Of a DNA stretch of 64,000 nucleotides, positions 16,001 to 37,287 are shown piece by piece. Position 1 is the stretch's first letter. Each line of letters begins with the position of its first letter. The DNA lies in the NCBI RefSeq assembly GCF_016097555.1, contig NC_054704.1, forward strand, positions 28,252,207 to 28,316,206, read 5' to 3'. The translations under genes were made by a program, and so were the position numbers. The DNA is from Gigantopelta aegis (lineage: Eukaryota; Mollusca; Gastropoda; Neomphalida; Peltospiridae). The notes below the pieces were generated by a model. It saw only the letters and a list, made by a program, of their open reading frames with translations. It did no database searches and was not told where the DNA came from.

Positions 16001-16379
16001 TCACAGACGCTACCCTTTATCTCTGAAATGAGCAGCTTCACCCCCATTTTTTTCCGATTCACTTTAAGAATTATATCTGTGGTGTTTATGTCGATTGATA
16101 CGCTTTAGGTAGGAGATTTAGCCACATATGTTACTATTGTCGTCAATGGGATTTGATTTGGTAGTATACACCCTGTTTACATTATTTTAAAATATTTTCC
16201 TTTTTAGACCTAAACCAGTTCTGCTGGATCCGATGAACCCCTACAACAACGTAGCGCCATCTGGTGATGATTTGGAAGAAATTGTTGACAAATCGATAGA
16301 TCTTCTGATCAGACTCGAGGATCTGATGTCAAAGGATACATTTGAATTTCACAAAGATGCCTGCTGTGTCTTGAGTTAA
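10168..16379 (+). CDS. OAS: 2'-5'-oligoadenylate synthetase-like protein, gene A (345 aa, five exons, ends in CaaX)
   Basis: CDS = join(10168..10401, 11363..11645, 11967..12121, 13411..13604, 16208..16379), all with GT-AG introns, phases 0, 1, 0, 2. OAS enzymes polymerise ATP into 2'-5'-linked oligoadenylate on binding double-stranded RNA. The core is complete: GGSVGK (79-84), SDVD with metal ligands D93 and D95, third ligand D162 in [11 protein letters not shown]1 C-terminal motif SVCFTEEQTEFVKS (exon 3), SYFLELLVIYIW (exon 4) and KPVLLDPMNP (exon 5). Length resembles single-domain OAS1. Unlike B and C it has no zinc fingers. It ends CCVLS, a perfect CaaX box, which predicts farnesylation. 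The start is uncertain: the frame is open upstream to a possible acceptor at 10148-10149, so an upstream coding exon could exist. The product's downstream effector in molluscs is unknown to me. Confidence 0.9.
10425..10745 (+). repeat. Tandem copies of the exon 1 end plus splice donor
   Basis: After the true donor (GTAAGT, 10402), the sequence TTTCTAGA..AACA...GGACT...GAAAAGGGTGTTTGT is repeated four more times. The position equivalent to the donor falls at 10471 (TTAAGT), 10553 (GTAAGT), 10647 (GTTAGT) and 10732 (GTAAGT). Spacing is 69-94 bp. Reading past the first donor meets an immediate stop, so later donors would give truncated products. Decayed copies of the same unit follow exon 1 of gene C. 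Confidence 0.85.
10876..11235. mobile_element. piggyBac-like MITE (TTAA target), family M2, 360 bp
   Basis: It is flanked by TTAA at 10872-10875 and 11236-11239. The ends are AGGGACATACCCTAGTTT and the imperfect inverse CTAGAGTCTGTCCCT. A second copy lies at 57353-57717. There is no coding capacity. It sits in intron 1 of gene A, about 125 bp before exon 2. Confidence 0.85.
11363..11645 (+). CDS. OAS: OAS gene A exon 2: catalytic core
   Basis: It follows the acceptor TTTTATTTTCAG. It encodes GGSVGK, the D93-x-D95 pair and D162. It ends CAAG|GTACAT in phase 1. In genes B and C the exon continues for 15 and 19 more residues after the equivalent Gln, so A lacks a linker present in its paralogues. 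Confidence 0.92.
11967..12121 (+). CDS. OAS: OAS gene A exon 3: start of OAS1 C-terminal domain
   Basis: It follows TTTATTTCAG and restores frame from phase 1. It encodes VYNEMKALS...SVCFTEEQTEFVKS...LIRFVKYWKE, matching the OAS1_C family block, and ends before GTATGA. Confidence 0.92.
12295..12605 (-). mobile_element. SINE, family S3
   Basis: The inverted head is at the right (reverse complement CCCCTGCGCGTGCTGTAACC) and the tail at the left (TGTTTAACGACACCCCAGC). A second copy lies at 49310-49574. It sits in intron 3 of gene A. Confidence 0.8.
12605..13040. repeat. (GAAC)n and (CT)n simple repeats in gene A intron 3
   Basis: AACG/AATG tetranucleotides lie at about 12612-12650, and a pure (CT)n of about 42 units at 12948-13031. 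The Arg/Glu-rich open frames on the reverse strand are artefacts. Confidence 0.9.
13411..13604 (+). CDS. OAS: OAS gene A exon 4: C-terminal lobe
   Basis: The acceptor is TTTTTCCCCCTCAG. It encodes LPVRSYFLELLVIYIW...VVYAL...MEITWPD and ends CTGCC|GTGAGT in phase 2. By hand count this exon is only about 54% identical to gene B, against about 80% for exon 2. Confidence 0.9.
13622..13711. repeat. 23-bp tandem repeat, four copies, just after exon 4
   Basis: The unit TTGTTAGTCCACAAAATGTATC occurs four times at exact 23-bp spacing (starts at 13623, 13646, 13669, 13692), beginning about 18 bp after the exon 4 donor. Confidence 0.9.
13715..14540 (-). mobile_element. Decayed non-LTR retrotransposon (LINE) remnant
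   Basis: The reverse complement of about 14285-14375 reads DNPKCVCGHHVEDVEHFLCH with CPLF after it. This is the zinc-knuckle motif at the C-terminus of many LINE reverse transcriptase proteins. The rest of the reading frame is broken. Boundaries are approximate. Confidence 0.6.
14543..15037. mobile_element. TIR DNA element, about 495 bp, non-autonomous
   Basis: The left end CTTCAAAAAAAGTAGGGGAA and right end TTCCCCTACTTTTTTAAG are inverted repeats. Flanks on both sides carry ATATAT. It looks Tc1/mariner-like from its ends and TA-rich flanks, but that is tentative. It separates two different LINE remnants in gene A intron 4. Confidence 0.65.
15040..15245 (-). mobile_element. LINE 3' remnant with poly-G
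   Basis: On the minus strand 15045-15135 encodes FEMSQRKCQMCNQNDIDDEC then HFILKCP, the CxxC..D.CHFIL.CP reverse-transcriptase tail motif also seen near 39900, 43150 and 55280. A poly-G run lies at 15163-15181. Confidence 0.6.
15246..16207. other. Remainder of gene A intron 4
   Basis: It contains a C run at 15396-15417 within a CGTACGCACC-rich fragment and otherwise unique-looking AT-rich sequence. No exon is recognised. The intron ends with the acceptor TTTTCCTTTTTAG. Confidence 0.6.
16208..16379 (+). CDS. OAS: OAS gene A exon 5: C-terminus with CaaX box
   Basis: Phase 2 entry encodes PKPVLLDPMNPYNNVAPSGD, equal to the RPVILDPxxP block that closes the OAS1 domain. A short helical tail and HKDACCVLS then the stop follow. 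The CVLS end is the same tetrapeptide as the classical H-Ras farnesylation box, with an extra Cys just before it. Confidence 0.9.
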
Positions 16380-16758
16380 CCGAGACTGGTTGTCGTTTGT
16401 TGTCACGATTAACAGGCCTTTTGAAGATTAGTTAAAAAAAACAAACAAAAAAAACAAACAAACCCACAGAACTTTCAACTGGAGGACACGATTATATTAC
16501 TGTGAAGCGTCAACACAAGCAGAACACATAGATTTAGAAATAAAGGCAATGATGCCAATTTCGGAGAGGATTACGTTGATTAATTTACTTAGTAAATGGC
16601 AGGTACCAAATCAAACATAATTTCCTTTGCTTGACAAGCAAAATTATTTGATGTCAAGATACGATAAAATGGTATCATGCAGAGCAGAAACAATAAATAG
16701 GGTATATGATAATGATAGATGGCATAGTACTGTAAGTCGTGTAATTATATGGCTATTT

Positions 16759-16829
<71 letters not shown>

Positions 16830-17386
16830 TATGAGTGTATGTCGCCCATAGTCGACTCCTTCCAAGAAGCAGCAAACTATATATCCCCATCTAGATAGGG
16901 CAGTAATTACCACAGTCTATTGTTGAGTTGATTGTCAAAGGATACATTTGAATTTCACAAAGATGCCTGCTGTGTTTTGAATTAACCGAGACTAGTCGTT
17001 TTTTGCCACGATTAACAGGCCTTTTGAAGATTAGTTAAAAAAAGTTGTTTTTTTTTAAACCCCAGAACTTCCAACTGGAGGACAAGATTATATTACTGTG
17101 AAGCGTCAATACAAAGAGAATACATAGATTTAAAAATAAAGGCAATGATGCCAATTTCGGAGAGGATTATGTTGATTAATTTATTTTACAGGTAATTACA
17201 GGTACCAAATCAAACATCAGTTTCTTTGCTTGACAAGAAAAAATTATTTGAAGTGCAGAAAAAACAGTACTGCAAACAGTAGGTAGGGTATATGAAAATG
17301 ATATATGGCATAGTACTGTAAGTCGTGTAATTACATGGCTATTTTGATACGCACTTTCCCATCTAAATAGGGAAGTAATTACCACA
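16338..17386 (+). repeat. Tandem duplication of gene A last-exon 3' end and 3' UTR
   Basis: Copy 1 is about 16338-16915 and copy 2 about 16936-17386. Shared blocks include GTCAAAGGATACATTTGAAT, the CaaX codons, AATAAAGGCAATGATGCC and GTAATTACCACAG. Copy 1 alone carries a (GA)n tract at 16763-16826. Copy 2 would encode a CVLN end instead of CVLS but has no visible acceptor, so it is probably a non-coding relic. Confidence 0.88.
16539..16544 (+). promoter_or_regulatory. Probable polyadenylation signal AATAAA of gene A
   Basis: AATAAA lies 160 nt after the gene A stop. The signal is repeated in the downstream copy of this 3' end at about 17135. No cleavage site can be fixed from sequence alone. 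Confidence 0.45.
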
Positions 17387-17394
17387 GCGCGGTC

Positions 17395-18065
17395 GTTTGG
17401 GATCGATCTCCTTCGGTGAGCTCATTGGGCTATTACTCGTTCCAGCCAGTGCACCACGACTGTTATTTCAAAGGTCGTGCTATGTGCTATAAAGACCTTT
17501 GTTACTAATGGGACAATGTAGCGGGTATGCTCTAAGACTGTATGTCAGAATTACTCAATGTTTGACATCCAATAGCCGATTATTAATAAATTAATGTGCT
17601 CTAGTAGTGTCATTAAACAAAACAAAGTACCCTCTACATTTTTCCATTAGTAGCAAGAGATATTTTATATGCGCCATCCCACACACTGTATGACACATAC
17701 CACGGCCTTTGTTATACCAGTCGTGGTGCACTAGCTGGAACGAGAAATACTAGTAGCCCAATGGGCTCGACCCTAGACCGACCGCGCAGGCGCTTTACCA
17801 CTGGGCTACATACAAGAATTTAAAATATATATCTCAAATTTGAATGTGCTAATGGTTTTTATCGTTCAAATGAAATACAACTTCAGTGGCTGTAAGGGCT
17901 GCACATAGCTCACTAATAAAGCGCTCGCCTGATGCACGATTACTCTAGGATCGTTTCCCGTCGGTGGGCTCATTGGGCTACTTATCATTCCAGAGCTGCC
18001 TTTGCTCCACAACAGTTACTGGTGTAAGAAATGCAGTGGTATGTACTCTCCTGTCTTTGAGATAG
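17395..18065. mobile_element. Cluster of three SINE S1 copies (plus, minus, plus)
   Basis: A plus copy runs about 17395-17628 (CAGCCAGTGCACCACGACTG through GTCATTAAACAAAACAAAG). A minus copy runs about 17629-17815, ending in the inverted head CGCTTTACCACTGGGCTACA. A plus copy starts near 17900 with CACATAGCTCACTAATAAAG and is truncated near 18065. A fragment of S2b tail lies at 18095-18135 and a poly-G run at 18178-18196. Confidence 0.75.
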
Positions 18066-18362
18066 TGATTATAGATTGGATTAGATAACATATTAACGTG
18101 CCTATATCCAATTAAGGTTCAAGCACATCTCTAACTTTGCCAGTGAATGGGTCCGGGACAGAAGGTGGGGGTGGAGCGGGGGGGGGGGGGGGGGGTGGAT
18201 TGGAAATGGGCAGAATTTTGGAATAACAATTAGTGAAAAAGATAATATAATTTTTTTATATAAAAAGTTAACTAGCCAAAAATAAAAAGGAATTGACTGC
18301 CCGGCCGAATATTATTTATATAATTATATAATTTGGAGCATTTTAGAAGGGCAGTCCAAAAA

Positions 18363-18892
18363 CAATCAGATTAAAATTAGCTCTACTGGTCTACCGGTAG
18401 AGCTAACAGCATTGCGTGTCCAGGTGACAATTTAAATATCGACCAATTACACTTCACCTTTTATAGCGTTATTCGGGAGCATACAACTTCTAAAAATATC
18501 AGGCGAGACTATTTATGCAATAGGCAAACTTGTTGGCCTATTTCAACATTAAAAACAGGGGGTGCAGTAATAAATTCTGGATTGTATACTAGTATAAACA
18601 GATTTTATGGCTATACCATCACGGGTTTTTTTTTTTTTTTCTTGAAACGAATTTTATATAAAATTTTATATTGAAATTAGTTTCCGCAGACTTCGTAATA
18701 CACCCGAATCATTTCGTATACCCTCGGCATAATCCCGAATGTTTTCAAATTCTTTTCCAATCACTGGCATGATTTTGCAAGTAAGATTTTGATTGGTCGA
18801 ATGAAAGGTCAACTGGACATGAGCTCCAACGGGGTGCTGTTAGATCCACAGGTAATGGTAATTAACCAGTGGAGCTAATTTTAATTAGATTG
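18363..18892 (+). mobile_element. TIR element family T1, copy 1 (530 bp, 9-bp target duplication)
   Basis: The ends CAATCAGATTAAAATTAGCT and its inverse (AGCTAATTTTAATTAGATTG) are TIRs. It is flanked by perfect 9-bp direct repeats GTCCAAAAA at 18354-18362 and 18893-18901. A 9-bp duplication points to Mutator-like (MULE) transposition. A second copy lies inverted at 23184-23735. It is non-coding. Confidence 0.85.
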
Positions 18893-18901
18893 GTCCAAAA
18901 A

Positions 18902-19131
18902 TATAATAATTGAGAATAAGAAGAGAGGATCGGACTATTTAATAATATAGAAAAATCAAGTAATTTTGAACGAAGGTCTAAACGTTTTAAAGTCTGATAT
19001 AAGACCGTTAAGGTGTACAGTTAGTAGGGACGAGGTGGGTTGCATCCCGTCAAGAAAACCCCTCGAGTGACAGTCATTAGATGCGGAAGGTGTAGTGCTG
19101 TGTGGAAATACAGTTTTTGAGAAGCCGAAGT

Positions 19132-19165
<34 letters not shown>

Positions 19166-19227
19166 GTCCAACTATAAATAAAGGTAAAAATGTGGCTTGA
19201 TTCCCCGACACACCAACTATCCAGGTT

Positions 19228-19293
<66 letters not shown>

Positions 19294-19741
19294 GGTGTCT
19301 TCGCTCCTATGGGCCTGCATATATGACTATAAATACGAATGTGTTCAATACGTCGTTAAATAAAAACAGTTCTTTCTTCCTTTCTCTTTCCAATACCTCG
19401 AGTTGGATTATCGACCGACAGTTCCAGACCCAATAGGTATGTGCCACGTTCAGTCGAGTACAATTATAGAATCATCAGCAATGGAAATACCCGACCAGCC
19501 ATTTGTCGCTAATGCTTGCTAGACTAATTTGTATTCTACACTGTCGTCGAATCGGAATTGGTCAAAATAGTTGTTTTATTTTTTAAAAATTAAATAAAAT
19601 AAAATAGGAAAATAAAAAAAGGAAACAAAATTGAAAAAAATCCGGTTGGCTGACCATATACAAGACCAGGCCTATTTTAATTTGTGTTGCTCGTAATGTG
19701 TAGAAAATCCATAGATGTTTCGTTAGTACGTATATACAATT
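18902..19741. repeat. Simple repeats upstream of gene B leader: poly-T and (CA)n
   Basis: A T run lies at 19135-19164 and (CA)n of about 31 units at 19230-19291. The rest of the stretch shows no gene. Confidence 0.7.
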
Positions 19742-19812
19742 GTTGTCGTCGTCGTCGTCGTTGTTGTTGTTGCTGCTGTTTTGGCGAAGAACAACATTGA
19801 AATGAAATCGAG
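19742..19812 (+). other. Candidate non-coding leader exon of OAS gene B
   Basis: The segment ends GAAATGAAATCGAG|GTACGT, a good donor 2.6 kb before the gene B start codon. It aligns with segments at 38961-39023, 40568-40603 and 46985-47037: each has a TTGTTGT/GTCGTCG tract, then GAAGAACAA-like sequence, then GGAAT/GAAAT...AG|GTANGT. That the same module precedes genes B and C suggests a shared 5' UTR exon. No TATA box is evident here. RNA evidence would be needed to confirm it. Confidence 0.42.
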
Positions 19813-20224
19813 GTACGTTCTACTTCCCGTTATAAAATACAGACAAATATAGATAAAAATGTGTTTATGTTAAATTTATCTCGGTAATTTTACAGAATAC
19901 CGACTTCGTGTGGATTGTCAATGTTTGAAATAACCAATAGATGTTGACTTACTTATTTTATTTTATTTTATTTTATTATTATTAGTTTTATTTTATCATT
20001 ATTATTTTTATTTTTATTTATATTTATTTTTATTTTCTTTGGGGGGGGGGGGGGAGGCGAGGAGGAGTCATGGGAACTGGCCCCTATATTTGCACAGTAT
20101 ATTGTATCGTATATTGAAACATTTACGTTTTCTCGTTTTAATTCGGTTATATGAAGAAGGACATATGGTTGAGGACCATAGAGGTAATTATATAGGAAAC
20201 CTGCTGCCCCCACACAGTGGGCTA

Positions 20225-20412
20225 CACTTTTAGATTAGCACCAATCTTAAATATATGCATTTCCCCACAGATAGGATAGTACATTCCGCGGCCTTTGTTA
20301 TATCAGTTGTGGAGCACTGGCTGAAACGAGAACGCGTAATGGGTCCATCGAATGGGATCGACTCGAGATCGATCACGCATCTGGCGAGCGTTTTACCAAT
20401 AGGCTACATCCC
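20225..20412 (-). mobile_element. SINE S1 fragment (minus)
   Basis: Body and inverted head are present (CCACAGATAGGATAGTACATTC, GTGGAGCACTGGCTG, GCGAGCGTTTTACCAATAGGC). The tail half is missing. A poly-G run precedes it at 20041-20055. Confidence 0.7.
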
Positions 20413-20517
20413 CCATCCCCCATCTACACCAATTTGTTTTTCAAAAGATGCATGCATTACTGTTGTAGCGTATATTTATCTCTGTTTAATGAACTCATAC
20501 TTGCGACAGTGAATTCA

Positions 20518-20520
<3 letters not shown>

Positions 20521-20613
<93 letters not shown>
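20521..20613. repeat. (CT)n microsatellite
   Basis: About 46 CT units, interrupted near the start only by a CG. Confidence 0.95.
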
Positions 20614-20616
<3 letters not shown>

Positions 20617-20814
20617 GTCAAAGTTGTGATAAGCCTACCAAGTTTAGCGTCACAACACGAGAGCCGACTTTGCGATTATTTTGGCTTAATAAACACATAG
20701 ACTAAATCAATGAATGTATCAACCACTAGACTGACCAACTGAACCAATGGACGTTTAACGACGCTTCAGCTATTGTATGTCAAATTAAGATACACACAAA
20801 ATAGCTATGAAACA

Positions 20815-22146: not shown

Positions 22147-22385
22147 TAATAATAGATTATAACGTACTTTTAACTCTACCATGATATACCAAGTTTTCTC
22201 AGAAAATGTTGACATTGTCGGCAATAGATTTTTGATTTGGTCCAACAGAACCCGAAATCTGGTAAATAAATACCGAGCCTGATATTGGTCAAATACTTTG
22301 CACTCAATCAAGTATCATTTTAAAAGTAATTATTATTAAATGTGTATTCGTGTTCTTTTGTTCCGGGTAAATATAGCAGTGAACA

Positions 22386-22991
22386 ATGGACGAAGAGAAC
22401 AGATACAACGAAGCTCTACAAAATGGAATTTGTATGTATTCGAATTGCCCTACATATGACGGTGGCGATTTGAGAACTCATATGAAAAAATATCATCAAA
22501 AGTATCATTGTCCTGCATGCGACCGATCATGTTTTCTGAAAAATGGCCTTAAACAACACATTATTGACACCGGACACTTCGTCAAAGCTGAATTCATTAC
22601 CAAAAATGATCTGAACGAGCACTTAAAAGAAGAGAGACATTATCGCCCAAAACAACAATACAACAACACACGACTTAACCGATCTTCTAATGTATCACAG
22701 TTGACTCAACCAATTCGAGAGCAACCTCGTCCGAGAACCTTATTCACATCGAGTTCCAGATCCTCTTCTGTTTCAAGTCAGCTTATTCCCAAAGACCATT
22801 CTGCAGTTACTCTTACAGGCAACCTTCCTAAAATCCTCAAAGGTATGGAACATTACGCGTCACTGAAAGATTTCATCGAGAAAGTAATTAGACCGAGCGA
22901 CGAGTACAACACACGGTGTGAGGATCTGGTAAACAGGTTGAAGAAGTTTCTAGAAAACAACACTGGGCTCCACGTAAAACGAGTGTTTGTT
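22386..22991 (+). CDS. OAS: OAS gene B exon 1: zinc fingers, linker and N-terminal core
   Basis: It encodes residues 1-202. The donor is GTACGT (22992), a weaker variant of the GTAAGT used in A and C. The ATG lies just after ATATAGCAGTGAACA; an acceptor AG about 12 bases upstream may join it to a leader exon. Compared with gene C, about five residues including the CxxC of finger 3 are deleted near residue 66. Confidence 0.9.
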
Positions 22992-25900
22992 GTACGTATT
23001 TAATATCATACCATAAAATACCATACTATTAGTATAGCATATGATACCATACACCAATTCCAAATCATATATACAATGGAATCTCGTTAATCCGGGCAGT
23101 ATGGTCAAGAAGATGGTCTTAATGTCATAAGCACTGAAGGCTCGAGGTACCATTTGGCAAGAGAAGGAATTTACTGTTTTATACAATCTAATTAAAATGA
23201 GCCCCACTATTATATGTGGATCTAACAGCAGCCCGTTGGAATTCATGTTCAGTTGACCTTTCATTCGACCAATCAAAACTTAACTTGCAAAATCATGCCA
23301 GTTATTTGAAAAGAATTTGAAAAAATTCAGGATTCTGTCGAGGGTATACGAAATGATTCGGGTGAATTACGAAGTATGCCGGAAACTAATTTCAATATAA
23401 AATTTTATATAAAATTCGTTTCAAGACGAAAAATAAAACCGTGATGGTATAGCCATAGAATCTGCTTATACCAGTATACAATCCAGAGTTTATTACTGCA
23501 CTCTTCCCCCTGTTTTTTTAATGTTGAAACAGACCAATAAGTTCGCCTATTGCATATAGTCTCGCCCGATATTTTTAGAATTTGTATGCTCCCAAATAAC
23601 GCTATAAAAGGCGAAGTGTAGTTGGTCGATATTTAAATTGTTATTTATAGATGAAATGTCACCTGGACATGTGAGTCCACGCAATGTTGTTAGATCTACT
23701 GGCATATACCAGTAGAGCTAATTTTAATCAGATTGTGATTTACACACACAGGGTACACAAAGTGACTGACAAAAAAAGAAGAAATATGGTGTATTTAATA
23801 AAGCACTCGGCACATTTTAATTACTAACGGGGATCGACCCTAGACCGATCGCGCATCAGACGAGCGTTTTACCATCCAAGAATAATATTTCTGTCTGTCT
23901 GTGTCAGGGCGGCTGACACAGACAGACCTGGAAATATTGGTCTTGGTTGTTGCTTTTTTGAGGTGGTTGTTTTTGAGGTGTTGGGGTTTTTTTTTTTTAT
24001 TATTTAGCAGAACTATACACATTGCGCAGGAGTTAAAATGACTACGCTCAGGGTCTTTTTTCTGCAATGCTCGCCTATCATAATTTGTTTTGCAGGGAGG
24101 CTCGGTAGGGAAAAAGACAAATCTATTAAACTATTCTGACGTCGATCTGATTGTCTTCATTGATGACTATCCCACCATGGTCGAGTTCCAAAGAAATCTT
24201 GACAACGTTTTGGAAAGTCTAGAGCGACATGTCCTGCACGACTTTAACTGGGCGAGAGAAGTTGAACACATCCGCACCACAAATCACGCCGTTCAGTTCA
24301 AGACAAAGCTGAAGGGATACACTGGTAACGCCATGATGAAAGTGGACCTCCTGCCAGCGTTAGATCGACTTGGTCAAGTCGGGTCCTTCGATTCATGGAA
24401 TAAGAAAATTAGTTCGGCTCAAGGTAGAATTTTACTGAATACCATATACTGCTTATTTCGATGTTTCTCAAGAAACTCATGGGCTCATAAACACTGGCAT
24501 AGCCATCCACACTATGTGTGTATTGATGTATGAATATCTATATATTGTATGTATGTCGTATTTTGACTATTACATACATATGTATTAACGCACTGGCGCA
24601 GGGGGTAATTAAAATCCTTTCTGTATGTATGTATGTATTCATGTATGAATATCTATATATTGTATGTATGTCGAGGTTGACTGTTACATACATAGATATT
24701 AACGCACTGGCGCAGGGGATAATTAAATCCTTTCTGGCCTCACAAATTGTCTCGTGCCGTTGTTGGGACTCGAACCTATGGCACCGAATAGCCCGCAACT
24801 TTGCAGACTTTCCATGATACCATTTGTATGTATGTATGTATGTACGTATGTATGTATGTATATATGTATGAGTTTGGAAAATGTAATACAGTTTTTATTT
24901 TTTATTGTTTGATGGGTGTGGGGTGTGGGGGGGGGGGGGGGGCATGACCCCCGTGGCTCCCCACTCCTGGCTACGCCACTGCTCATAAACGAAATGATTT
25001 TTGTTTTATATTTAACGAAACTATAACATATTTTAAATAATATTTTTGCATGCTTATTTGACAGTATAGGCGTCGGAAACGAATACTAGTGGTGTTAAAG
25101 GCATATTGTCACAGACCACTGACCTATTACATGGCCTAACAAAGTCTTACTTAAAAATCTATATATTTGATTTGTCCCCAAATATACTTTATTCAACCAT
25201 CTACGTAACCACCATACACCACTTATTAATGATATTTTGTTTAAATAATTGAATTATGGCAAATGGTCCATAATTCAAAAACTAACATTACTGAGAGGGT
25301 TGACATGGATTTCACTCTATCATAGTGCAGTTAAAGTGATGCAATAGCTAGATTTGGTCTGTAAAAATTAATGTAATTTCGATTTATTATTCATTTTTAG
25401 AGAAATAAGGTCCTTAAATCTGTGACAGTATGCCTTTAAGCAAGGAACGCATGTCCTCCAAACCTGAAGATCATGTACCAACCCACCCACCCCCACCCCC
25501 GCCCCCCCCCCCCCCCCCCCCTCCCACAGAGGAAAGACGAATTAATACAGTTGACCCTTTCTTGTTGCTGGTTTCTTCCAACGCCTTTGAACAGAGAGGG
25601 AAAAAAAGCCGCTTCCGTCACATATTTTTATTAATATTTCAGTCTTAGATTTAATCTACAAGGAAATGAAGACTCAGACAGACAGCGAAAGACAATACTA
25701 TTCTGTATGCTTTACTGAGAAGCAAACAGAATTCGTGAAGTCCTTGCTGGATGAAGTTAGAGATTTGATTCGATGTCTCAAGTACTGGAAAGAGGTCTGT
25801 TACGATTTCTTAGTCATATGTGTAACAGTATTTGTATTTGATAGAAGCGGTCTTTATGCATGTTTAATTATTGATGTTACAAGCGACCTTTGTTTGGTCT

Positions 25901-28628
25901 TGGCGAACCGCAATGTTGAATAAATGCAAATCAGTCGAATTCAAACTATCGAATATTGTTTGTGTTGGTGACACAAAGCAACATGAAACAGTATGATCGA
26001 GTACAGTCAACCCTGTGATAAACGGACTATACTCAGTCTGCTGCCATTGTACATAACATGTTGACGACATATTTTCTTGTTTAGAATATCAGTGTCTGTA
26101 TAAAGGTGTTTGTTGTCATCGAATTTGACCTTCCAATAATTTCGTAAAAAAAACAACCCCAAAAACCACAGACAGGTAGGTGCAAATTACAGGTCAGTTT
26201 TTATTTATATTTTAATTTGGGAAATAGGTGGGGGGGGGGGGGGGGGGGTTGAAGAAAATTTGGTACTTTGTTTTGGTATATATCGTATTTCTGTAGGCCT
26301 AAAGTAATCTGGACATTCCATAATATTTGTTTTTGAACTGCTACGGTTCATTGATATTACACACACACACACGCACGCACGCACACACGCACCATCATAA
26401 CATAACCCAACTCTCCTTAGTTCATCAAGATAAACATCGAGTGCAAGCGCAAGCACTTACGCTCGAGGTTAAACTTGGTGTACTACATCCTCATAAAATA
26501 CAAAATACAATCGGTGCTCACATTGATGTTGTTTTTCAGACTGAAAAGGTACCTGTAAGATCATATTTTCTGGAGTTGTTGGTTAAATACAAGTGGCAAG
26601 AAGAGTGGCAAAACCCGGAAAAATTACATGGTCGTAACAACTTTATAGACGTCATTTATGCACTGATGACCATTAATGAAATGGAGATAGTATGGCCCGA
26701 CAGATATACCGTTACAGAGTATGCTCCCTTTCCGTAAGTACATGGTAGTAAAACTAATTAATTATTCGTATTAAGAGGTTATTAAAACGATAAACACGGC
26801 GAAGGCAAGTGTGTGTGTGTGTGTGTGGGTGGGGGGTGGGGGTGGAGGGAGGCTGACTGAGATCGAGGGCGCAAAGCAAAGTTTTTAGGGGGTTTGGGGT
26901 ATGCTCCCTACGTAACATTTTAAAAGCTAGATGTCATGAAACGCGATTTTCTGCTTTCTACAAGTAAAATTCATCTCTGCCTTAAGATTTACTACCAATA
27001 ATTTGTTATTTATTTAGAATTATTAGGAGGCTAGAACCTCCGCAGCACCCACACACACACACACACACCCGCTCCGTCGTGCCTAAACGATAATGATTTT
27101 CAAACTATATAATATTTTTAAGCAATACCTTATCAAACAAATGAGAAAGGAAGGGAATGCGATATCTCATTCTCGGGATATTTAATTTAGTTTAATTTAT
27201 GGTTTCTAATTGTGTAGTAAAAATACTTGCCAAACCTAAAATAATGAAGGGGAGGGGAAGAACAACAACCAAAAGGCAGTGATGGCGCACTAATTCTCAA
27301 CACAATTAATTTACGACCAGTAGACGTTTTGGTCACAGATGCGTTCTAAAAGAAATTTGAGTAAATTTTGACCACTGATGCACGTTTTGAATGCTTTGTA
27401 AAACAAAATACAAATGTATTTTGTAGCATATTATACATGACTGTATATCATTATGGGATACTTTTGAAAATATCTACTGGCTCTTATCTAATTTTGTTGA
27501 GTATATAAGGTCTTCTTTAGCTACACAAAATACTGTACTTTTAAACGAAAAAGGTAACTTTTTGTATTTTTTCACATATGGGACTTGTAACATGACAAAG
27601 GCTTGGATCTAGCTCGGTTGCTAGGGCGCTCGTTTGAGGTGGGTGTTCCCGTTCGTACCAGTGCCCCACGATTGACATATCAAAGGTTGTGGTATGTGGT
27701 GTACTGTTTGTGACAAAGTGCATATAAATGATTCTTTGCTGCTAATAGAAAAATGTAGCGGATTATTCAAAGAATATTTGTCCAAAATGACCAAATGTTT
27801 GACATCCAATAGCCGATGATTAATAAATCTAGTGGCGCTCTGGTGGTGTCGTTAAACACAAAACACTGTCACTTTTAACTTTTGTAACTTTAAATATTGG
27901 TATATAAATATGTAAACCAGTTAGGATTTGATTGTGGGTGAATAACCTGGAGTGTCTGAAATCATGCTTAAACACATCTACTCAGTTGCTATTATATTTG
28001 TATTGATTTCGTGTCTGCTTTAGAAAATTTCTCTTAAAACTCTGGTTAAGCCTACTAACGTTTCAATTCATTTCAACTTATGTTCGTGCTTATAATCCAA
28101 TTAAGGTTCAAGCACGCTGTCCTGGACACATACACACACCCACACACACACACACCTCAACTGTCTGTCCAGGACAGTGGGTTAGTTTGTTAGTGGTTAG
28201 TGAGAGAGAAGAGGGTGTAGTGGTCTTACACCTACCCATTGAATCGTTAAAACTCGCTCTGGGTGGGAGCCGGTACCGGGCTGCGAACCCTGTATCTACC
28301 AGCCTTATGTCCGATGGCTTAACCACGACACCACCGAGGCCGGTCTGACGTTTCTAACAATTGTTTCCTGGGCCCATTTGTTCAAACATTAGTTAGCTTA
28401 ACCAGTGGTTAAAAGAACATTTTGAAAAATAAATCATGATTTGGAACGATTTAAGGTAACCACATACAAAGAAATCCAAAATGTAATATGTATTTATTAA
28501 CAAATACTTACAAGAAACGTATTACACTAATGCTAGTCTTATACTGTCAACTGTCACGACGAAGTTGCCCAATTCGACGGTTGCGTTGTGTACATAAGAT
28601 GAGACTTTAATAAAATATCTGTCTGTAA

Positions 28629-28662
<34 letters not shown>

Positions 28663-28976
28663 CTCCCGACTTACGACGGGTGAGCTCAGATTAACAACGA
28701 ATGGGTTATACGACGAGAATGAGCGCCCGGACTAGCAACTGGACTAGCAAGTTGGCCAACTTTGTTGTGGCAGTTGGTAATGTGAGACTAGCATTAGCGT
28801 AACCGTGTTTTGAAACAACTGGCCTAATATTTATAAATTAATAACAAATCTGTTGCTGCCAAATATACTTCTTCTTCCTATTAATAATTGTATCACAAAT
28901 GTGGAACATTTTAGAACATTTGATCTGGCAGATATCAAAGCACAAATTGAACACAGAGAGAGAGAGCGAGAGCGAG

Positions 28977-29013
<37 letters not shown>

Positions 29014-32000
29014 ACTTCTGTTATTTTGTCTTTGTATTTTTAAAATATAGAAGAGATCTTAATATATAGTTAATAAAAGTTAGAAGTTAGAAGTCGGGGT
29101 CTAGGGACTGCAGATGCATGATTATGTCCAGAGCAAAGTCCTGGTCAAGGGGTCAAGGGGTCAAGGGGTGGGGGTGGGCTGGCGTGGGCGAAGCACTAGA
29201 AGCCCTCTTCGGTAAAAACAGGTGGGGTTTTTGTGTGTGTTTAAGCCCAAAATTATCATCTCTGGAAAACTTTTTCACAACATTAAAGGAAAAGAGAATT
29301 TACTTACTTTAACAGATAATCCTCTTACTTAGTGAAAATGATTCTGAATACCAGATTATTTGGGAGTACTTTCATCTTTTGTGAACACCTGATATCATTA
29401 CTGTCTTGACGCGGGGCGGGCCGTAGCCTTGTGGTAAAGTACTCAATCCCCATCGGTGGGTCGATTGAGCTATTCCTTGCTCCAGGAGTGCACCACGACT
29501 GGTATATCAAAGGCCGTGGTATGTGTTATCTTGTCTGTGGGATAGTGCATATAAAATATTCCTTGCTACTAATGAAACAAAATGTAACGGGTTTCCTCTC
29601 TAAGACTGTGTCAAAATTATCAAATGTTTGATATCCAATAGCCGATGATGTATAAATCAATGTGCTCTGACAAAACAAACTGTTTTGACAGTGGTTCATG
29701 AATGCCATCACCGCTGCCTTTCTCACTCTCTCAATACATGCATATCCATTGAGCTCTGCCTGGTGCAAGTTTAGATTTGTCCAACCAGTCTTGGGGTGGC
29801 AGTCATACAGACGACGTACGGGTGTAGTGACCTGGCGGTGGTATGTCCAGCCAACTTGGGATGGCAGTCACTCTGGCGACGTACGGGTGTAGTGACCTGG
29901 GGAGTGGCATGCCCAACCAGTCTTCGGGTATCAGTCATACTGGCGACGTACGGCTGTAGTGACCTGGGAGGTGGCATGTCCAACCAGTCTTTGGGTGTCA
30001 GTCATACTGCCGACGTACGGGTGTAATGACCTGGGGGGGGGGGGGGGGGGCATGTCCAGCCAGTCTGGGGTGGCAGTCATACAGGTGACGTACGGGTGGA
30101 ATGACCTGGGGAGTGGCATGTCCAACCAATCTTGGGGTGGCAGTCATACAGGCGACGTACGGGTGGAGTGACCTGGGGAGTGGCATGTCCACCTAGTCTT
30201 CGGGTGGCAGTCATACAGGCGACGTACGGGTGGAGTGACCTGGGGGTGGCATGTCCAGCCAACTTGGGATGGCAGTCACTCTGGCGAAGTACGGGTGTAG
30301 TGACCTGGGAAGTGGCATGTCCACCTAGTCTTCGGGTGGCAGTCATACAGGCGACGTACGGTTGGAGTGACCTGGGGAGTGGCATGTCCACCTAGGCTTC
30401 GGGTGGCAGTCATACAGGCGACGTACGGGTGGAGTGACCTGGGGGTGGCATGTCCAGCCAACTTGGGATGGCAGTCACTCTGGCGAAGTACGGGTGTAGT
30501 GACCTGGGGAGTGGCATGTCCAACCAGTCTTCGGGCATCAGTCATACTGGCGACGTACGATTGTAGTGACCTGGGGGGTGGCATGTCCAACCAGTCTTTG
30601 GGTGTCAGTCATACTGCCGACGTACGGGTGTAGTGACCTGGGGGGGGGGGGGGGGCATGTCCAGCCAGTCTGGGGTGGCAGTCATACAGGCAACATAAGG
30701 GTGGAGTGACCGGGGGGGGGGGGGCATATCCAACCAGTCTTCGGGTGGCAGTCATACAGGCGATGTACGGGTGGAGTGACTTGGGGAGGGGCATGTCCAG
30801 CCAGTCTGGGGTGGCAGTCATACAGGTGACGTACGGGTGTAGTGACCTGGGGGGGGGGGGGGCATGTCCAGCCAGTCTGGGGTGGCAGTCATACAGGTGA
30901 CGTACAGGTGGAGTGACCTGGGGAGTGGCATGTCCAACCAGTCTTCGGGTATCAGTCATACTGGCGACGTACGGGTGTAGTGACCTGGGGAGTGGCATGT
31001 CCAACCAGTCTTGGGGTGTCAGTCATACTGGCGACGTACGGGTGTAGTGACCTGGGGAGTGGCATGTCCAACCAGTCTTCGGGTATCAGTCATACTGCCG
31101 ACGTACGGGTGTAATGACCTGGGGGGGGGGGGCTTGTCCAGCCAGTCTTTGGGTGTCAGTCATACTGCCGACGTACGGGTGTAGTGACCTGGGGGGGGGG
31201 GGGGGGGGGCTTGTCCAGCCAGTCTTGGGGTGGCAGTCATACAGGTGACGTACGGGTGTAGTGACCTGGGGAGTGGCATGTCCAACTAATCTTGGGGTGG
31301 CAGTCATACAGGTGACGTACGGGTGTAGTGACCTGGGGAGTGGCATGTCCAACTAATCTTGGGGTGGCAGTCATACAGGCGACGTACGGGTGGAGTGACC
31401 TGGGGAGTGGCATGTCCAACTAATCTTGGGGAGGCAGTCATACAGGCGACGTACGGGTGGAGTGACCTGGGGAGTGGCATGTCCAACCAATCTTGGGGTG
31501 GCAGTCATACAGGCGACGTACGGGTGGAGTGACCTGGGGAGTGGCATGTCCAACCAGTCTTGGGGTAGCAGTCATACAGGCGACGTACGGGTGGAGTGAC
31601 CTGGGGGGTGGCATGTCCAGCCAACTTGGGATGGCAGTCACTCTGGCGACGTACGTGTGTAGTGACCTGGGGAGGGGCATGTCCAACCAGTCTTCGGGTA
31701 TCAGTCATACTGGCGACGTACGGGTGTAGTGACCTGGGGATTGGCATGTCCAGCCAGTCTTGGGGTGGCAGTCATACAGGCGACATACGGGTGGAGTCAC
31801 CTGGGGAGTGGCATGTCCAACCAGTCTTGGGGTGTCAGTCATACTGGCGACGTACGGGTGTAGTGACCTGGGGAGTGGCATGTTCACCCAGTCTTCGGGT
31901 GGCAGTCATACAGGCGACGTACGGGTGGAGTGACCTGGGGGTGGCATGTCCAGCCAACTTGGGATGGCAGTCACTCTGGCGAAGTACGGGTGTAGTGACC

Positions 32001-35000
32001 TGGGGAGTGGCATGTCCAACCAGTCTTTGGGTGTCAGTCATACTGCCGACGTACGGGTGTAGTGACCTGGGGGGGGGGGGGGGGGGCATATCCAGCCAGT
32101 CTGGGGTGGCAGTCATACAGGCGACGTACGGGTGTAGTGACCTGGGGAGTGGCATGTCCAACCAGTCTTTGGGTGTCAGTCATACTGCCGACGTACGGGT
32201 GTAGTGACCTGGGGGGGGGGGGGGGGGCATGTCCAGCCAGTCTGGGGTGGCAGTCATACAGGCAACATAAGGGTGGAGTGACCGGGGGGGGGGGGGTGGC
32301 ATATCCAACCAGTCTTCGGGTGGCAGTCATACAGGCGATGTACGGGTGGAGTGACTTGGGGAGGGGCATATCCAGCCAGTCTGGGGTGGCAGTCATACAG
32401 GTGACGTACGGGTGTAGTGACCTGGGGAGTGGCATGTCCAACCAGTCTTGGGGTGTCAGTCATACTGGCGACGTACGGGTGTAGTGACCTGGGGAGTGGC
32501 ATGTCCAACCAGTCTTGGGGTGTCAGTCATACTGGCGACGTACGGGTGTAGTGACCTGGGGGTTGGCATGTCCAACCAGTCTTTGGGTGTCAGTCATACT
32601 GCCGACGTACGGGTGTAGTGACCTGGGGGGGGGGGGGGGGGGGGCATGTCCAACCAGTATTTGGGTGTCAGTCATACTGCCGACGTACGGGTGTAGTGAC
32701 CTGGGGGGTGGCATGTCCAACCAGTCTTTGGGTGTCAGTCATACTGCCGACGTACGGGTGTAGTGACCTGGGGGGGGGGGGGGGCATGTCCAGCCAGTCT
32801 GGGGTGGCAGTCATACAGGCGACATACGGGTGGAGTGACCTGGGAAGTGGCATGTCCAACCAGTCTTTGGGTGTCAGTCATACTGCCGACGTACGGGTGT
32901 AGTGACCTGGGGGGGGGGGGGGGCATGTCCAGCCAGTCTGGGGTGGCAGTCATACAGGCGACATACGGGTGGAGTGACCTGGGGGGTGGCATGTCCAACC
33001 AGTCTTTGGGTGTCAGTCATACTGCCGACGTACGGGTGTAGTGACCTGGGGAGTGGCATGTCCAACCAGTCTTGGGGTGTCAGTCATACTGGCGACGTAC
33101 GGGTGTAGTGACCTGGGGAGTGGCATGTCCACCCAGGCTTCGGGTGGCAGTCATACAGGCGACGTACGGGTGGAGTGACCTGGGGGTGGCATGTCCAGCC
33201 AACTTGGGATGGCAGTCACTCTGGCGAAGTACGGGTGTAGTGACCTGGGGAGTGGCATGTCCAACCAGTCTTTGGGTGTCAGTCATACTGCCGACGTACG
33301 GGTGTAGTGACCTGGGGGGGGGGGGGGGGCATGTCCAGCCAGTCTGGGGTGGCAGTCATACAGGCAACATAAGGGTGGAGTGACCGGGGGGGGGGGGGGG
33401 GGTTGGCATATCCAACCAGTCTTCGGGTGGCAGTCATACAGGCGATGTACGGGTGGAGTGACTTGGGGAGGGGCATATCCAGCCAGTCTTGGGGTGTCAG
33501 TCATACTGGCGACGTACGGGTGTAGTGACCTGGGGAGTGGCATGTCCAACCAGTCTTGGGGTGTCAGTCATACTGGCGACGTACGGGTGTAATGACCTGG
33601 GGGGGGGGGGGGGGATTGCCCAGCCAGTCTTTGGGTGTCAGTCATACTGCCGACGTACGGGTGTAGTGACCTGGGGGGGGGGGGGGGGGGGGCTTGTCCA
33701 GCCAGTCTTGGGGTGGCAGTCATACAGGTGACGTACGGGTGTAGTGACCTGGGGAGTGGCATGTCCAACTAATCTTGGGGTGGCAGTCATACAGGTGACG
33801 TACGGGTGTAGTGACCTGGGGAGTGGCATGTCCAACTAATCTTGGGGTGGCAGTCATACAGGCGACGTACGGGTGGAGTGACCTGGGGAGTGGCATGTCC
33901 AACTAATCTTGGGGAGGCAGTCATACAGGCGACGTACGGGTGGAGTGACCTGGGGAGTGGCATGTCCAACCAATCTTGGGGTGGCAGTCATACAGGCGAC
34001 GTACGGGTGGAGTGACCTGGGGAGTGGCATGTCCAACCAGTCTTGGGGTAGCAGTCATACAGGCGACGTACGGGTGGAGTGACCTGGGGGGTGGCATGTC
34101 CAGCCAACTTGGGATGGCAGTCACTCTGGCGACGTACGTGTGTAGTGACCTGGGGAGGGGCATGTCCAACCAGTCTTCGGGTATCAGTCATACTGGCGAC
34201 GTACGGGTGTAGTGACCTGGGGATTGGCATGTCCAACCAGTCTTTGGGTGGCAGTCATACAGGCGACATACGGGTGGAGTCACCTGGGGAGGGGCATGTC
34301 CAGCCAGTCTTGGGGTGGCAGTCATACAGGTGACGTACGGGTGTAGTGACCTGGGGAGTGGCATGTCCAACCAGTCTTGGGGTGTCAGTCATACTGGCGA
34401 CGTACGGGTGTAGTGACCTGGGGAGTGGCATGTCCACCCAGTCTTCGGGTGGCAGTCATACAGGCGACGTACGGGTGGAGTGACCTGGGGGTGGCATGTC
34501 CAGCCAACTTGGGATGGCAGTCACTCTGGCGAAGTACGGGTGTAGTGACCTGGGGAGTGGCATGTCCAACCAGTCTTTGGGTGTCAGTCATACTGCCGAC
34601 GTACGGGTGTAGTGACCTGGGGGGGGGGGGGCATGTCCAGCCAGTCTTCGGGTGGCAGTCATACAGGCGATGTACGGGTGGAGTGACTTGGGGAGGGGCA
34701 TATCCAGCCAGTCTGGGGTGGCAGTCATACAGGTGACGTACGGGTGTAGTGACCTGGGGAGTGGCATGTCCAACCAGTCTTGGGGTGTCAGTCATACTGG
34801 CGACGTACGGGTGTAGTGACCTGGGGAGTGGCATGTCCAACCAGTCTTGGGGTGTCAGTCATACTGGCGACGTACGGGTGTAGTGACCTGGGGGTTGGCA
34901 TGTCCAACCAGTCTTTGGGTGTCAGTCATACTGCCGACGTACGGGTGTAGTGACCTGGGGGGGGGGGGGGCATGTCCAACCAGTATTTGGGTGTCAGTCA

Positions 35001-37287
35001 TACTGCCGACGTACGGGTGTAGTGACCTGGGGGGGGGGGCATGTCCAGCCAGTCTGGGGTGGCAGACATACGGGTGGAGTGACCTGGGGGGTGGCATGTC
35101 CAACCAGTCTTTGGGTGTAAGTCATACTGCCGACGTACGGGTGTAGTGACCTGGGGGGGGGGGGGGGCATGTCCAGCCAGTCTGGGGTGGCAGTCATACA
35201 GGCGACATACGGGTGGAGTGACCTGGGGGGTGGCATGTCCAACCAGTCTTTGGGTGTCAGTCATACTGCCGACGTACGGGTGTAGTGACCTGGGGGGGGG
35301 GGGGCATGTCCAGCCAGTCTGGGGTGGCAGTCATACAGGCGACATACGGGTGGAGTGACCTGGGGGGTGGCATGTCCAACCAGTCTTTGGGTGTCAGTCA
35401 TACTGCCGACGTACGGGTGTAGTGACCTGGGGGGGGGGGGGGGGGGCATGTCCAGCCAGTCTGGGGTGGCAGTCATACAGGCGACATACGGGTGGAGTGA
35501 CCTGGGGAGGGGCATGTCCAACCAGTTTTGGGGTGGCAGTCATACTGGCGACGTACGGGTGGAGTGACCTGGGGAGTGGCATCTCTTCTCTAGATAGAGC
35601 ACCTGACAGCGATTCGTGGAAACAATCACAACGTTTTCAAAATGCCCTTTCCTTGTGTGGAAATAGGATATTGATGATGATAACGGTTTTGTCATTCAGA
35701 TTGAAGATGTACAGTCATTTGTGTCTACCATTTTCAGGCGGTAATTTGGGAGTACAATTATTAACTCAGATGATGAAACGCTGTTTACTTTCTATATACC
35801 ATATTGTAATTCATGGTGGCATTATTTTATTTTATTATTAATTTGTTTTCAACAGTTCCTTAGTTTGTAGCAAGGTCTTTGAGATTCCGGATTGGCCATT
35901 TTAAAGATGTTATAGTACCTACTTGATCAGAATATAATTCCATTCAGCTTTATCATACAAACCACGATTATAAAGTATTTATATTTTTTAAAAAGCGTGA
36001 GATTATAGTGGTGTTGCATGAGAGCGTGATCTTTGTTACAAATGCGTGATACTCACGCCAAATGCGTGAGAGTTGACAGGTATAGGACTAACTGTTCGCG
36101 TTCAAACGTCACACGGACACTACTATACTGGACACTAATCGGGGCACAGTTGTTCAAAGCATGGTTACGTTTACTTTGGGTTAGTGTAATGTTATTCTTG
36201 TAAGTATTCAGTGCCGCCGGAATGATTATGACATTGGGGCGGCGGACTAGCGATGTTGAGGGCTACGAAGTGGCCCGAATTTGCTAGGGGTGTCCGGGGG
36301 CATGCTCCCCCGGGAAAACTTTGAAATATAGATACTAGAAAAAAGATTTTAATGGCTTCTGGACATTGTAAATAATATTTGATTGTTATATTTGCTATTT
36401 TATATTTTAAAAAATGCTAATTATATAGTAAAACATTAAGGAGCGTTTATGCGGGATGTAGCCCAGAGGTAAAGCGCTCGCTCGATGCGCAGTCGGTCTA
36501 GGATCGATCCCCACGACTGGTATATAAAAGGCCGTTGAAATATTTTATTTAACGACGCACTCTTTTATATGCACCATCCCAAAGACAGGATAGTACATAC
36601 CACGACCTTTGTTACACCAACTGTGGAGCACTGGCTGGAACGAGAAATAGCCCAATGAATGGGTCCATCGACGGGGGTCGATCCTGGACCGACCGCGCAT
36701 CAAGCGAACGCTTTACCACTGGGCTACGTCCCGTCCCCTGTGGGATGGTGCATATAAAAGATCCCTTGCTGCTAATCGAAAAGAGTAGCCCATGAAGTGG
36801 CGACAGCGGGTTTCCTCTCTCAATATCTGTGTGGTCCTTAACCATATGTCTGACGCCATATGACCGTAAATAAAATGTGTTGAGTGCGTCGTTAAATAAA
36901 ACATTTCTTTCTTTCTTTTTTTTTAGAAAAAGACCTGTTCTTTTGGATCCTTTGAACCCTTACAACAATGTGGCGCCATCTGGTGATGATCTCGATGAAA
37001 TTATGACCAAAGCAGAACGTCTTCTAACTCAAATAGAACAGACATTAAAAGCCGATGCAATACCAGAAGATTGTGATACGAAACGAGCGCTAGTTGATGA
37101 ACCACAATCAGAAGACTTGACTGAAACTATGACTAACTCAAACTATCGTCCAACTCAAAACTCAAAACAGACACAAGAAGACGATTCAATATCAGATGAT
37201 TATGATGAGAAACATCCACTCATGGAACCAAAATCAGAAGATGACCAAGAGAGCTCTAACTCTGTCTGCGAGTGTGTAATCATTTAA
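22386..37287 (+). CDS. OAS: Zinc-finger 2'-5'-oligoadenylate synthetase-like protein, gene B (546 aa, five exons, ends in CaaX)
   Basis: CDS = join(22386..22991, 24096..24423, 25643..25794, 26540..26733, 36927..37287), phases 0, 1, 0, 2. ATG context is AACAATGG. Zinc finger 1 (C16, C21, H32, H37) and U1-type finger 2 (C42, C45, H58, H64) are complete. Finger 3 keeps H79 and H85 but has lost both cysteines. A Ser/Arg-rich linker leads to the OAS core: GGSVGK (203-208), D217, D219 and D286 as metal ligands, [45 protein letters not shown]. An acidic tail of about 80 residues contains a twice-repeated module and ends CVII, a CaaX box predicting prenylation (terminal Ile favours geranylgeranylation). 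The fingers are of a kind known to bind double-stranded RNA in other proteins; that role here is inferred. Confidence 0.92.
23184..23735 (-). mobile_element. TIR element family T1, copy 2 (inverted relative to copy 1)
   Basis: The ends are CAATCTAATTAAAATGAGC and GCTAATTTTAATCAGATTG. The internal sequence is the reverse complement of 18363-18892 along nearly its whole length. Flanking 9-mers TGTTTTATA and TGATTTACA agree at seven of nine positions, consistent with an old 9-bp target duplication. It sits in gene B intron 1. Confidence 0.85.
23820..23938. repeat. SINE S1 head fragment and a long perfect hairpin
   Basis: 23820-23878 is an inverted S1 head (GACCCTAGACCGATCGCGCA). 23893-23927 is a hairpin with a 15-bp perfect stem (GTCTGTCTGTGTCAG) and loop GGCGG; outer AATATTT/AAATATT extends it to 23883-23938. 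Confidence 0.7.
24096..24423 (+). CDS. OAS: OAS gene B exon 2: catalytic core with extra linker
   Basis: The acceptor is TTTGTTTTGCAG. It encodes GGSVGKKT, D217-V-D219 and D286. After the Gln at which gene A exon 2 stops, it runs 15 residues further (VGSFDSWNKKISSAQ) and ends CAAG|GTAGAA in phase 1. Confidence 0.92.
24530..24985. repeat. Short duplication, (GTAT)n and an interspersed repeat fragment in intron 2
   Basis: A unit of about 118 bp (TGAATATCTATATATTGTAT...AACGCACTGGCGCAGGGG) occurs twice (about 24530-24640 and 24645-24725). (GTAT)n follows at 24825-24870. A G run with GGCTCCCCACTCCTGGCTAC (about 24925-24985) is an end-type fragment of a dispersed repeat. Confidence 0.7.
25099..25435. 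mobile_element. piggyBac-like MITE (TTAA target), family M3, 337 bp
   Basis: TTAA flanks at 25095-25098 and 25436-25439. The ends AGGCATATTGTCACAG and CTGTGACAGTATGCCT are TIRs. It lies in gene B intron 2, followed by a C run at 25498-25520. Confidence 0.85.
25643..25794 (+). CDS. OAS: OAS gene B exon 3
   Basis: The acceptor is TTAATATTTCAG; it restores frame from phase 1. It encodes LDLIYKEMKTQ...[14 protein letters not shown]...LIRCLKYWKE and ends before GTCTGT, an unusual donor (GAG|GTCTGT) compared with GAG|GTATGA in gene A. Confidence 0.9.
26540..26733 (+). CDS. OAS: OAS gene B exon 4
   Basis: The acceptor is TTGTTTTTCAG. It encodes VPVRSYFLELLVKYKW...VIYALMTINEMEIVWPDRY and ends TTTCC|GTAAGT in phase 2. 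It has the same length (194 nt) as gene A exon 4. Confidence 0.92.
26815..27600. repeat. Interspersed repeat (copy of 9095-9250) and AT-rich filler
   Basis: GATCGAGGGCGCAAAGCAAAG and CTACAAGTAAAATTCATCTC match the repeat near 9100-9220. (GT)n precedes it and (CA)n follows at about 27048-27067. 27080-27590 shows no gene. Confidence 0.6.
27600..27865 (+). mobile_element. SINE S1 copy
   Basis: Head GGATCTAGCTCGGTTGCTAG, body ATCAAAGGTTGTGGTATGTG, tail TGGTGGTGTCGTTAAACAC. It is moderately decayed. Confidence 0.75.
28065..28346 (-). mobile_element. SINE S2b copy (uninterrupted)
   Basis: It is homologous to 6400-6746 but lacks the MITE, so it preserves the empty site CTGTCCAGGACAGTGGG. A (CA)n tract at 28129-28154 lies within the tail. 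Confidence 0.78.
28347..29405. repeat. Gene B intron 4 segment with poly-C, (GA)n and GTCAAGGG repeats
   Basis: A C run of about 33 lies at 28630-28661, (GA)n at 28955-29010 and three GGTCAAGG units at 29145-29168. No exon is recognised. Confidence 0.7.
29410..29693 (+). mobile_element. SINE S1 copy
   Basis: Head GGGCCGTAGCCTTGTGGTAA, body ACGACTGGTATATCAAAGGC, tail ATCAATGTGCTCTGACAAAA. It ends about 85 bp before the minisatellite array. Confidence 0.8.
29780..35590. repeat. 67-bp minisatellite array, about 86 units, in gene B intron 4
   Basis: The unit contains CGACGTACGGGTGTAGTGAC, then CTGGGGAGTGGCATGTCC, then AACCAGTCTTGGGGTG and TCAGTCATACTGG. Period 67 bp is exact over long stretches. 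In many units GGGGAGTGG is replaced by an uninterrupted G run of roughly 10-25. A block near 31.1-32.5 kb recurs near 33.6-34.9 kb at an offset of 2483 bp (37 units), giving a higher-order repeat. Because 67 is not a multiple of three, all frames stay open for long distances; the resulting proteins are artefacts. Confidence 0.95.
35591..36450. other. Unique-looking intron sequence and an interspersed repeat fragment
   Basis: No gene. 36220-36330 (GGCCCGAATTTGCTAGGGGT, CGGGGGCATGCTCCCCCGGG) resembles the fragment near 15185-15240. Confidence 0.5.
36451..36922. mobile_element. Composite of three SINE S1 pieces ending at the exon 5 acceptor of gene B
   Basis: Plus head 36451-36545 (GGATGTAGCCCAGAGGTAAA), then a minus body and head to about 36733 (CGCTTTACCACTGGGCTACG), then a plus body with tail to 36922 (GTGCGTCGTTAAATAAAACA, (TTTC)n). 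The pyrimidine-rich tail runs directly into the TTTTTTTTAG acceptor of exon 5. Confidence 0.82.
36927..37287 (+). CDS. OAS: OAS gene B exon 5: end of OAS domain, acidic repeated tail, CaaX box
   Basis: Phase 2 entry gives PKRPVLLDPLNPYNNVAPSG. After DLDEIMTKAERLLTQ the tail holds two tandem modules, each with an E.MT start, a D(C/Y)D(T/E)K centre and a P(Q/K)SED end. The last residues are SVCECVII and stop. Gene A exon 5 is about half as long and lacks the repeated tail. Confidence 0.92.

Follow-up and report, generated by a model that had tools for sequence, protein, structure and literature searches.

CaaX-type C termini on diverged 2'-5'-oligoadenylate synthase paralogues of the vent snail Gigantopelta aegis

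Introduction

Two complete oligoadenylate synthase (OAS) genes of the deep-sea vent snail Gigantopelta aegis, here called A and B, encode proteins that end in a CaaX box. They lie in a window of 64 kb, by which we mean the whole stretch of DNA that was analyzed, and all exons described here are on its forward strand. The question raised by this locus is whether the two ends act as prenylation signals that hold the enzymes at membranes and, if so, whether they are an old trait shared with the box of human OAS1 p46 or a separate acquisition. In human cells, p46 depends on its box for Golgi location, for which the box also suffices, and mutation of the Cys abolishes the effect on SARS-CoV-2 (PMC8357416, PMC7612834), in agreement with the role in membrane location and antiviral action that a sequence-only reading of the window had cited for it. 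Prenylated OAS1 p46 has also been linked to protection against severe COVID-19 (PMC7612834). For CaaX ends on invertebrate OAS we found no paper in the open-access literature, where the descriptions of prenylated OAS1 p46 that we found were all from vertebrates. The closest published statement that we found is that diverse vertebrate OAS1 proteins share a CaaX motif (PMC8357416), and the terms CaaX and prenyl are absent from the main text of a 2018 survey of OAS evolution (PMC6307210).

Results

Gene models and C-terminal sequences

Splicing by GT-AG sites and exon phase assembles gene A (10168-16379) into a reading frame for a protein of 345 aa that ends in HKDACCVLS, with the stop codon ending at 16379. 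This protein is identical across all 345 residues to the database entry P0001 ('2'-5'-oligoadenylate synthase 2-like [Gigantopelta aegis]'). Exon 1 (10168-10401) holds the start of the OAS core and lacks zinc fingers; exon 2 (11363-11645) encodes the nucleotidyltransferase with residues D93, D95, and D162; exons 3 (11967-12121) and 4 (13411-13604) follow from splicing; and exon 5 with the stop codon (16208-16379) ends in DACCVLS, giving CVLS as the CaaX box and an additional Cys immediately before it.

Gene B (22386-37287), spliced in the same way, encodes 546 aa in five exons and ends in NSVCECVII, with the stop codon ending at 37287. Its exon 1 (22386-22991) combines an N-terminal C2H2-like finger, which scores under the Pfam cut-off, with the start of the OAS core, and exon 2 (24096-24423) encodes the nucleotidyltransferase with D217, D219, and D286. 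Exons 3 (25643-25794) and 4 (26540-26733) were again placed by splicing, and exon 5 with the stop codon (36927-37287) carries a long tail to VCECVII, in which CVII is the CaaX box and an additional Cys lies two residues before it. No matching model for gene B was present among the 72 database proteins retrieved, so that support for its gene model comes from homology, from splice phase, and from the purifying selection seen in comparison with A. The two genes agree in exon lengths modulo 3, and dN/dS is 0.31 over 345 aligned codons, indicative of purifying selection; in exon 5 alone (56 codons) dS is 1.05 and dN 0.42. The claim that A and B end in frame in CCVLS and CECVII is hence confirmed by GT-AG and phase splicing and, in the case of A, also by P0001.

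Both proteins are recognizable as OAS. The OAS1_C domain (PF10421) is found above its curated cut-off in each (E 9e-19 for A and 3.3e-15 for B), and the catalytic aspartates, a DxD pair plus a third Asp, occupy columns that are invariant across five Gigantopelta paralogues in stretches aligned to human OAS1. The predicted structure of A has a mean pLDDT of 88.7, and its ten best PDB matches are all OASL, OAS1, OAS2, or OAS3 (TM 0.62 to 0.73 on the query), with human OASL and pig and human OAS1 as the best matches and bacterial CD-NTase and NF90-NF45 next at weaker scores. The model predicts with high confidence that A has the OAS fold. The last 12 residues (334-345) have a pLDDT under 50, and the C terminus of A is predicted to be flexible, disordered, and exposed, as would suit a CaaX protein.

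C2H2-like fingers precede the OAS part in B, in P0004 and P0006, and in a further locus of the window, 'gene C,' which is treated at the end. Their spacing is mostly CX2CX12HX5H, that of JAZ-type dsRNA-binding fingers. The Pfam zf-C2H2_4 cut-off is passed by C and missed by B, and matches to Pfam JAZ lie under the cut-off in C and P0004 and just over it in P0048, an OAS of the coral Porites. Among these paralogues, a finger and a CaaX box are known to occur together in B alone.

Survey of CaaX ends among OAS-like sequences

A CaaX end was defined as a Cys fourth from the end, aliphatic residues at a1 and a2, and an accepted X. This pattern is found in CVLS and CVII and also in CIII, the box of a third Gigantopelta paralogue, P0007, which lies outside the window, is known from a partial model of 195 aa, and ends in SCGCIII. 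Altogether 74 sequences were examined, comprising the 72 database proteins and B and C from the window, and 44 complete C termini were chosen among them via a regular expression for the LDPxNP motif. The other 30, which include P0036, a sea-star OAS, were excluded because they were truncated, not OAS, or unmatched by the motif, and as they stand none of them has a CxxX end. The final protein search scored the best-ranked 7993 candidates (those with the most shared words), so that the survey is partial. The number of Gigantopelta paralogues is a lower bound. Vertebrate C termini were taken from papers, and the survey samples few named groups. The gene models of relatives may carry wrong or alternative last exons.

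CaaX boxes terminate three of the six complete Gigantopelta C termini and 1 of the 38 others, a difference with a Fisher p of 0.006 that should be read loosely because the test treats relatives as independent. Outside Gigantopelta the box is absent from all 27 complete ends from Haliotis (3), Mytilus (5), Saccostrea (1), corals (9), sea stars (8), and a springtail (1), some of which are isoforms of one gene; the 1/11 among the remaining surveyed sequences is P0051, which ends in CSLQ. Among closer relatives, the complete ends of Gigantopelta P0003 (PTWSTE), P0005, and P0006 and of Haliotis P0017 and P0021 lack the box. By this count, CaaX ends are commoner in Gigantopelta than chance would give, at a p value that ignores kinship.

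Two other assignments were considered and not adopted. An independent gain in P0051 was judged doubtful, since it sits on a long branch and has a tail of usual length (34 residues). Rab-type CC or CxC signals sit at the extreme C terminus, and such a signal was rejected for A and B, whose Cys pairs are not at the extreme end.

Phylogeny and divergence of the tails

A tree of 47 rows, including one human and one rodent row, was computed after removal of the tails and most N-terminal parts. A single clade (bootstrap 98, SH-aLRT 90) unites A, B, and P0007, with the P0007 row filling 41% of the tree columns. This CaaX clade is nested in a group of eight Gigantopelta rows (100/100), whose nearest relatives are two Haliotis rows. 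At least two changes are required on the tree, on the branches to the snail clade and to P0051. Counting changes does not distinguish gains from losses; on a tree rooted outside the snail group, a single gain is the straightforward interpretation. Gene C, a mosaic row, and P0004, both outside the set with complete C termini, branch between P0003 and the CaaX clade, so that the gain may date back one or two further forks.

Beyond the LDPxNP motif, the tails measure 42 residues in A, 73 in P0007, and 105 in B. Among CaaX-less tails the median length is 32 residues, with 36 of the 40 falling within 24 to 43, three at 57, 57, and 176, and P0005 the shortest at 19. On these figures the term 'extension' applies to B and P0007 only, the tail of A being within the CaaX-less range and some ten residues longer than usual. 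In A and B the first approximately 30 residues past the motif still align, and farther on both sequence and length differ. Nonetheless, A, B, and P0007 share the same terminal arrangement: a Cys followed by an aliphatic pair, a permitted X, and the stop, and another Cys shortly ahead of the box. The synonymous distance between A and B in exon 5 amounts to about one substitution per synonymous site. In a neutral simulation of the 15-base end, CaaX plus stop was kept in 0.6 to 1.7% of runs at the A-B dS of 0.78 to 1.05 and in 5% at a distance of 0.52. Retention of the end is a better argument against chance than the Fisher count, and tail length is weaker evidence.

Discussion

Our reading starts from the ends themselves, their sharing by three diverged paralogues of one clade, their absence from the 27 complete OAS ends listed above, the conserved aspartates, and the predicted fold of A with its disordered end; within the survey, the trait is seen in one species. 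We consider it probable that A and B are OAS-fold enzymes, that the last exon gained C(x)CaaX in the ancestor of A, B, and P0007, and that the proteins are prenylated and held at membranes, independently of p46. In such a scenario, the last exon of that ancestor would have come to end in C(x)CaaX on a flexible tail, and the box Cys would be prenylated, with farnesyl on CVLS and with geranylgeranyl or either lipid on CVII and CIII. The neighboring Cys, possibly palmitoylated, might provide a second anchor. So anchored, the enzyme would sit on the cytosolic side of membranes, in a position to encounter RNA from agents replicating on organelles and to start oligonucleotide signaling at that same membrane. 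For the snail proteins we infer prenylation, membrane location, and antiviral action.

The sequence-only reading had left open whether membrane-anchored OAS is ancient or has arisen convergently. Of these, the convergent side is favored by the survey and the single nested clade, and the ancient side is disfavored: the box would have been gained once in the snail lineage and retained as the tails diverged, convergently with vertebrate OAS1 p46, given the box-less relatives, the nested position of the clade, and the differing exon layout. In the snail models the box is in exon 5 together with LDPxNPYNN, whereas the human isoforms have five exons in common and carry the box on one version of an alternatively spliced exon 6 (PMC8357416). 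The partial survey does not point to common ancestry of the snail CaaX tail with p46. Were the early animal OAS already prenylated, the box must have been lost in most lineages and kept in A, B, and P0007 and in vertebrate OAS1. OAS1 'from diverse vertebrate species' does carry CaaX ends (PMC8357416), and loss of the box is known in mammals, namely horseshoe bats (PMC7612834), but with 0 of the 27 complete ends from the groups listed above, a box nested within this snail's own paralogues, and its location at the end of exon 5 rather than on an alternative exon 6, we regard an ancient trait as very improbable. Slightly less remote, and still improbable, is that an ancestral tail happened to end in Cys-aliphatic-aliphatic-X and does not serve as a prenylation signal. 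The tree allows a single origin for all three boxes, which are hence not three independent events, and a CaaX-like end occurs elsewhere as well (P0051). Against such an accident stand the retention of the Cys, the aliphatic pair, the stop, and the second Cys next to a stretch that varies in length and sequence, as well as the fact that CVLS is a known farnesylation box and that boxes with Ile as X are known substrates (PMC11152559).

What the anchored enzyme would be for is a separate matter. The prenylation may be real and the enzyme nevertheless have a purpose other than detecting viruses, such as action at phagosomal membranes or those enclosing symbionts, or a role in regulation, which we think rather unlikely and yet the most serious of the alternatives considered here. 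Some GBPs are prenylated. GBPs act on microbes within cells (PMC7240152), and Gigantopelta harbors two gammaproteobacterial endosymbionts (PMC7895826); the 64-kb window, however, gives no hint of a symbiosome. Moreover, according to the 2018 survey, oyster and limpet have OAS, with no RNase L, interferon, or STAT1/2 found there, and sponge OAS works without dsRNA; its authors infer that early OAS acted as regulators rather than as antiviral proteins (PMC6307210). An antiviral role of snail OAS is consequently not to be taken for granted, and RNase L should not be assumed as the output of the snail enzyme.

With anchoring by prenylation kept as the preferred reading, the lipid can be predicted from the boxes. 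CVLS is the box of H-Ras and is farnesylated by human FTase (PMC11152559). In that study, it was unmodified by human GGTase-I in a lower-expression yeast test and, in another comparison, was modified better by human than by yeast GGTase-I. A is therefore likely to be farnesylated, and the earlier prediction of farnesyl for A is well founded. The string CVII is absent from the main text of PMC11152559, and, among the boxes tested there, the closest to CVII and CIII that we noticed is CTII, which was near-completely geranylgeranylated and was also fully prenylated with human FTase. The corresponding prediction of geranylgeranyl for B stands as likely but not as exclusive; B (CVII) and P0007 (CIII) are likely to be geranylgeranylated or to accept either lipid. 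Palmitoylation beside the Ras2 box is mentioned in the same paper (PMC11152559), and by analogy the second Cys near the snail boxes may be palmitoylated as a second anchor.

Human OAS1 p46, with its geranylgeranylated CTIL box, resembles the snail proteins in its OAS fold, its OAS1_C domain, and its CaaX C terminus. It differs from them in box sequence, the snail boxes being CVLS, CVII, and CIII with an additional Cys before, and probably in origin, which the survey suggests was separate. Mouse Oas1a, Oas1f, and Oas1g and bovine OAS1Y are similar in that the box is present in some paralogues (3/8 in mouse and 1/3 in cattle; PMC7612834); these are mammalian, and their box presumably derives from the vertebrate trait. 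H-Ras shares its last four residues, CVLS, with A, but A is not a GTPase, and the tail signal alone is common. ZAP-L and the GBPs have folds unrelated to OAS, and comparison with them is functional only. They are, like the proposed snail enzymes, lipid-anchored proteins of innate immunity (for ZAP-L, see PMC8568172).

A separate gain in a snail, if true, would imply that membrane placement of OAS has been repeatedly favored. The genome of Gigantopelta offers paralogues with and without the box for comparison. Such a gain also makes the targets of mollusc OAS products, without RNase L, directly testable. Conceivably, a mollusc lineage independently evolved a membrane-anchored OAS in which, at least in the case of B, an N-terminal C2H2-like finger spaced like those that bind dsRNA, the enzyme, and a tail with two lipidatable Cys residues are joined, a proposal that we advance only tentatively. 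If correct, such an enzyme would sense RNA on the surface of organelles in a group of animals from which no RNase L has been found; anchoring to membranes would then be a solution reached repeatedly, and its downstream receptor would be yet to be discovered.

Gene C and other features of the locus

Exons 1 and 2 of 'gene C' (48677-49270 and 50281-50620; together 48677..50620) encode three C2H2-like fingers and a nucleotidyltransferase and are of the A/B type. Exons 3 and 4 (57173-57327 and 59143-59342; together 57173..59342), given to C by phase, are of the CaaX-less P0003 type, with identities of 90% and 82% to P0003 against 62 to 67% and 30 to 31% to A/B. Between exons 2 and 3 lies a run of 200 N (54001-54200) that is likely a scaffold join, and C is either the product of recombination or a pair of genes that the assembly has fused over the gap. 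The database model of C, P0002, agrees with it over 311 residues before running on into intron 2. A search of 59343-64000 for an exon 5 gave no match. Exons 3 and 4 would predict a P0003-like end without CaaX. As these exons are of the CaaX-less type and lie across the gap from the A/B-like exons 1 and 2, reading the end of C would be a weak test of the CaaX rule, and C was rejected as an extra CaaX test.

Exon 2 of B (24096-24423) and that of C (50281-50620) differ by a dS of 0.24, compared with 1.1 to 2.6 for exons 1, 3, and 4, a contrast suggestive of gene conversion or of a mosaic. Just downstream of exon 1 of C, the end of that exon recurs in another short copy (18 residues) at 49580-49633. 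Short repeats after exon 1 of gene A, at about 10420-10740, apparently resemble this copy when compared by eye. Exon 1 of A (10168-10401) is without the finger block, and, compared with B and C, its start, MYSN followed by PSTV, has the look of an internal deletion.

Downstream of gene A, the final coding bases and 3' flank are duplicated in tandem (16324-16762 and 16929-17348; 444 columns, 83%). The copy of the gene A end in this duplicate, at 16938-16982, reads KDTFEFHKDACCVLN-stop; it was rejected as an alternative last exon, being inside the duplication with no exon 5 core matched upstream. At 29778-35582, within intron 4 of gene B, a 67-base unit recurs in an array of about 85 copies.
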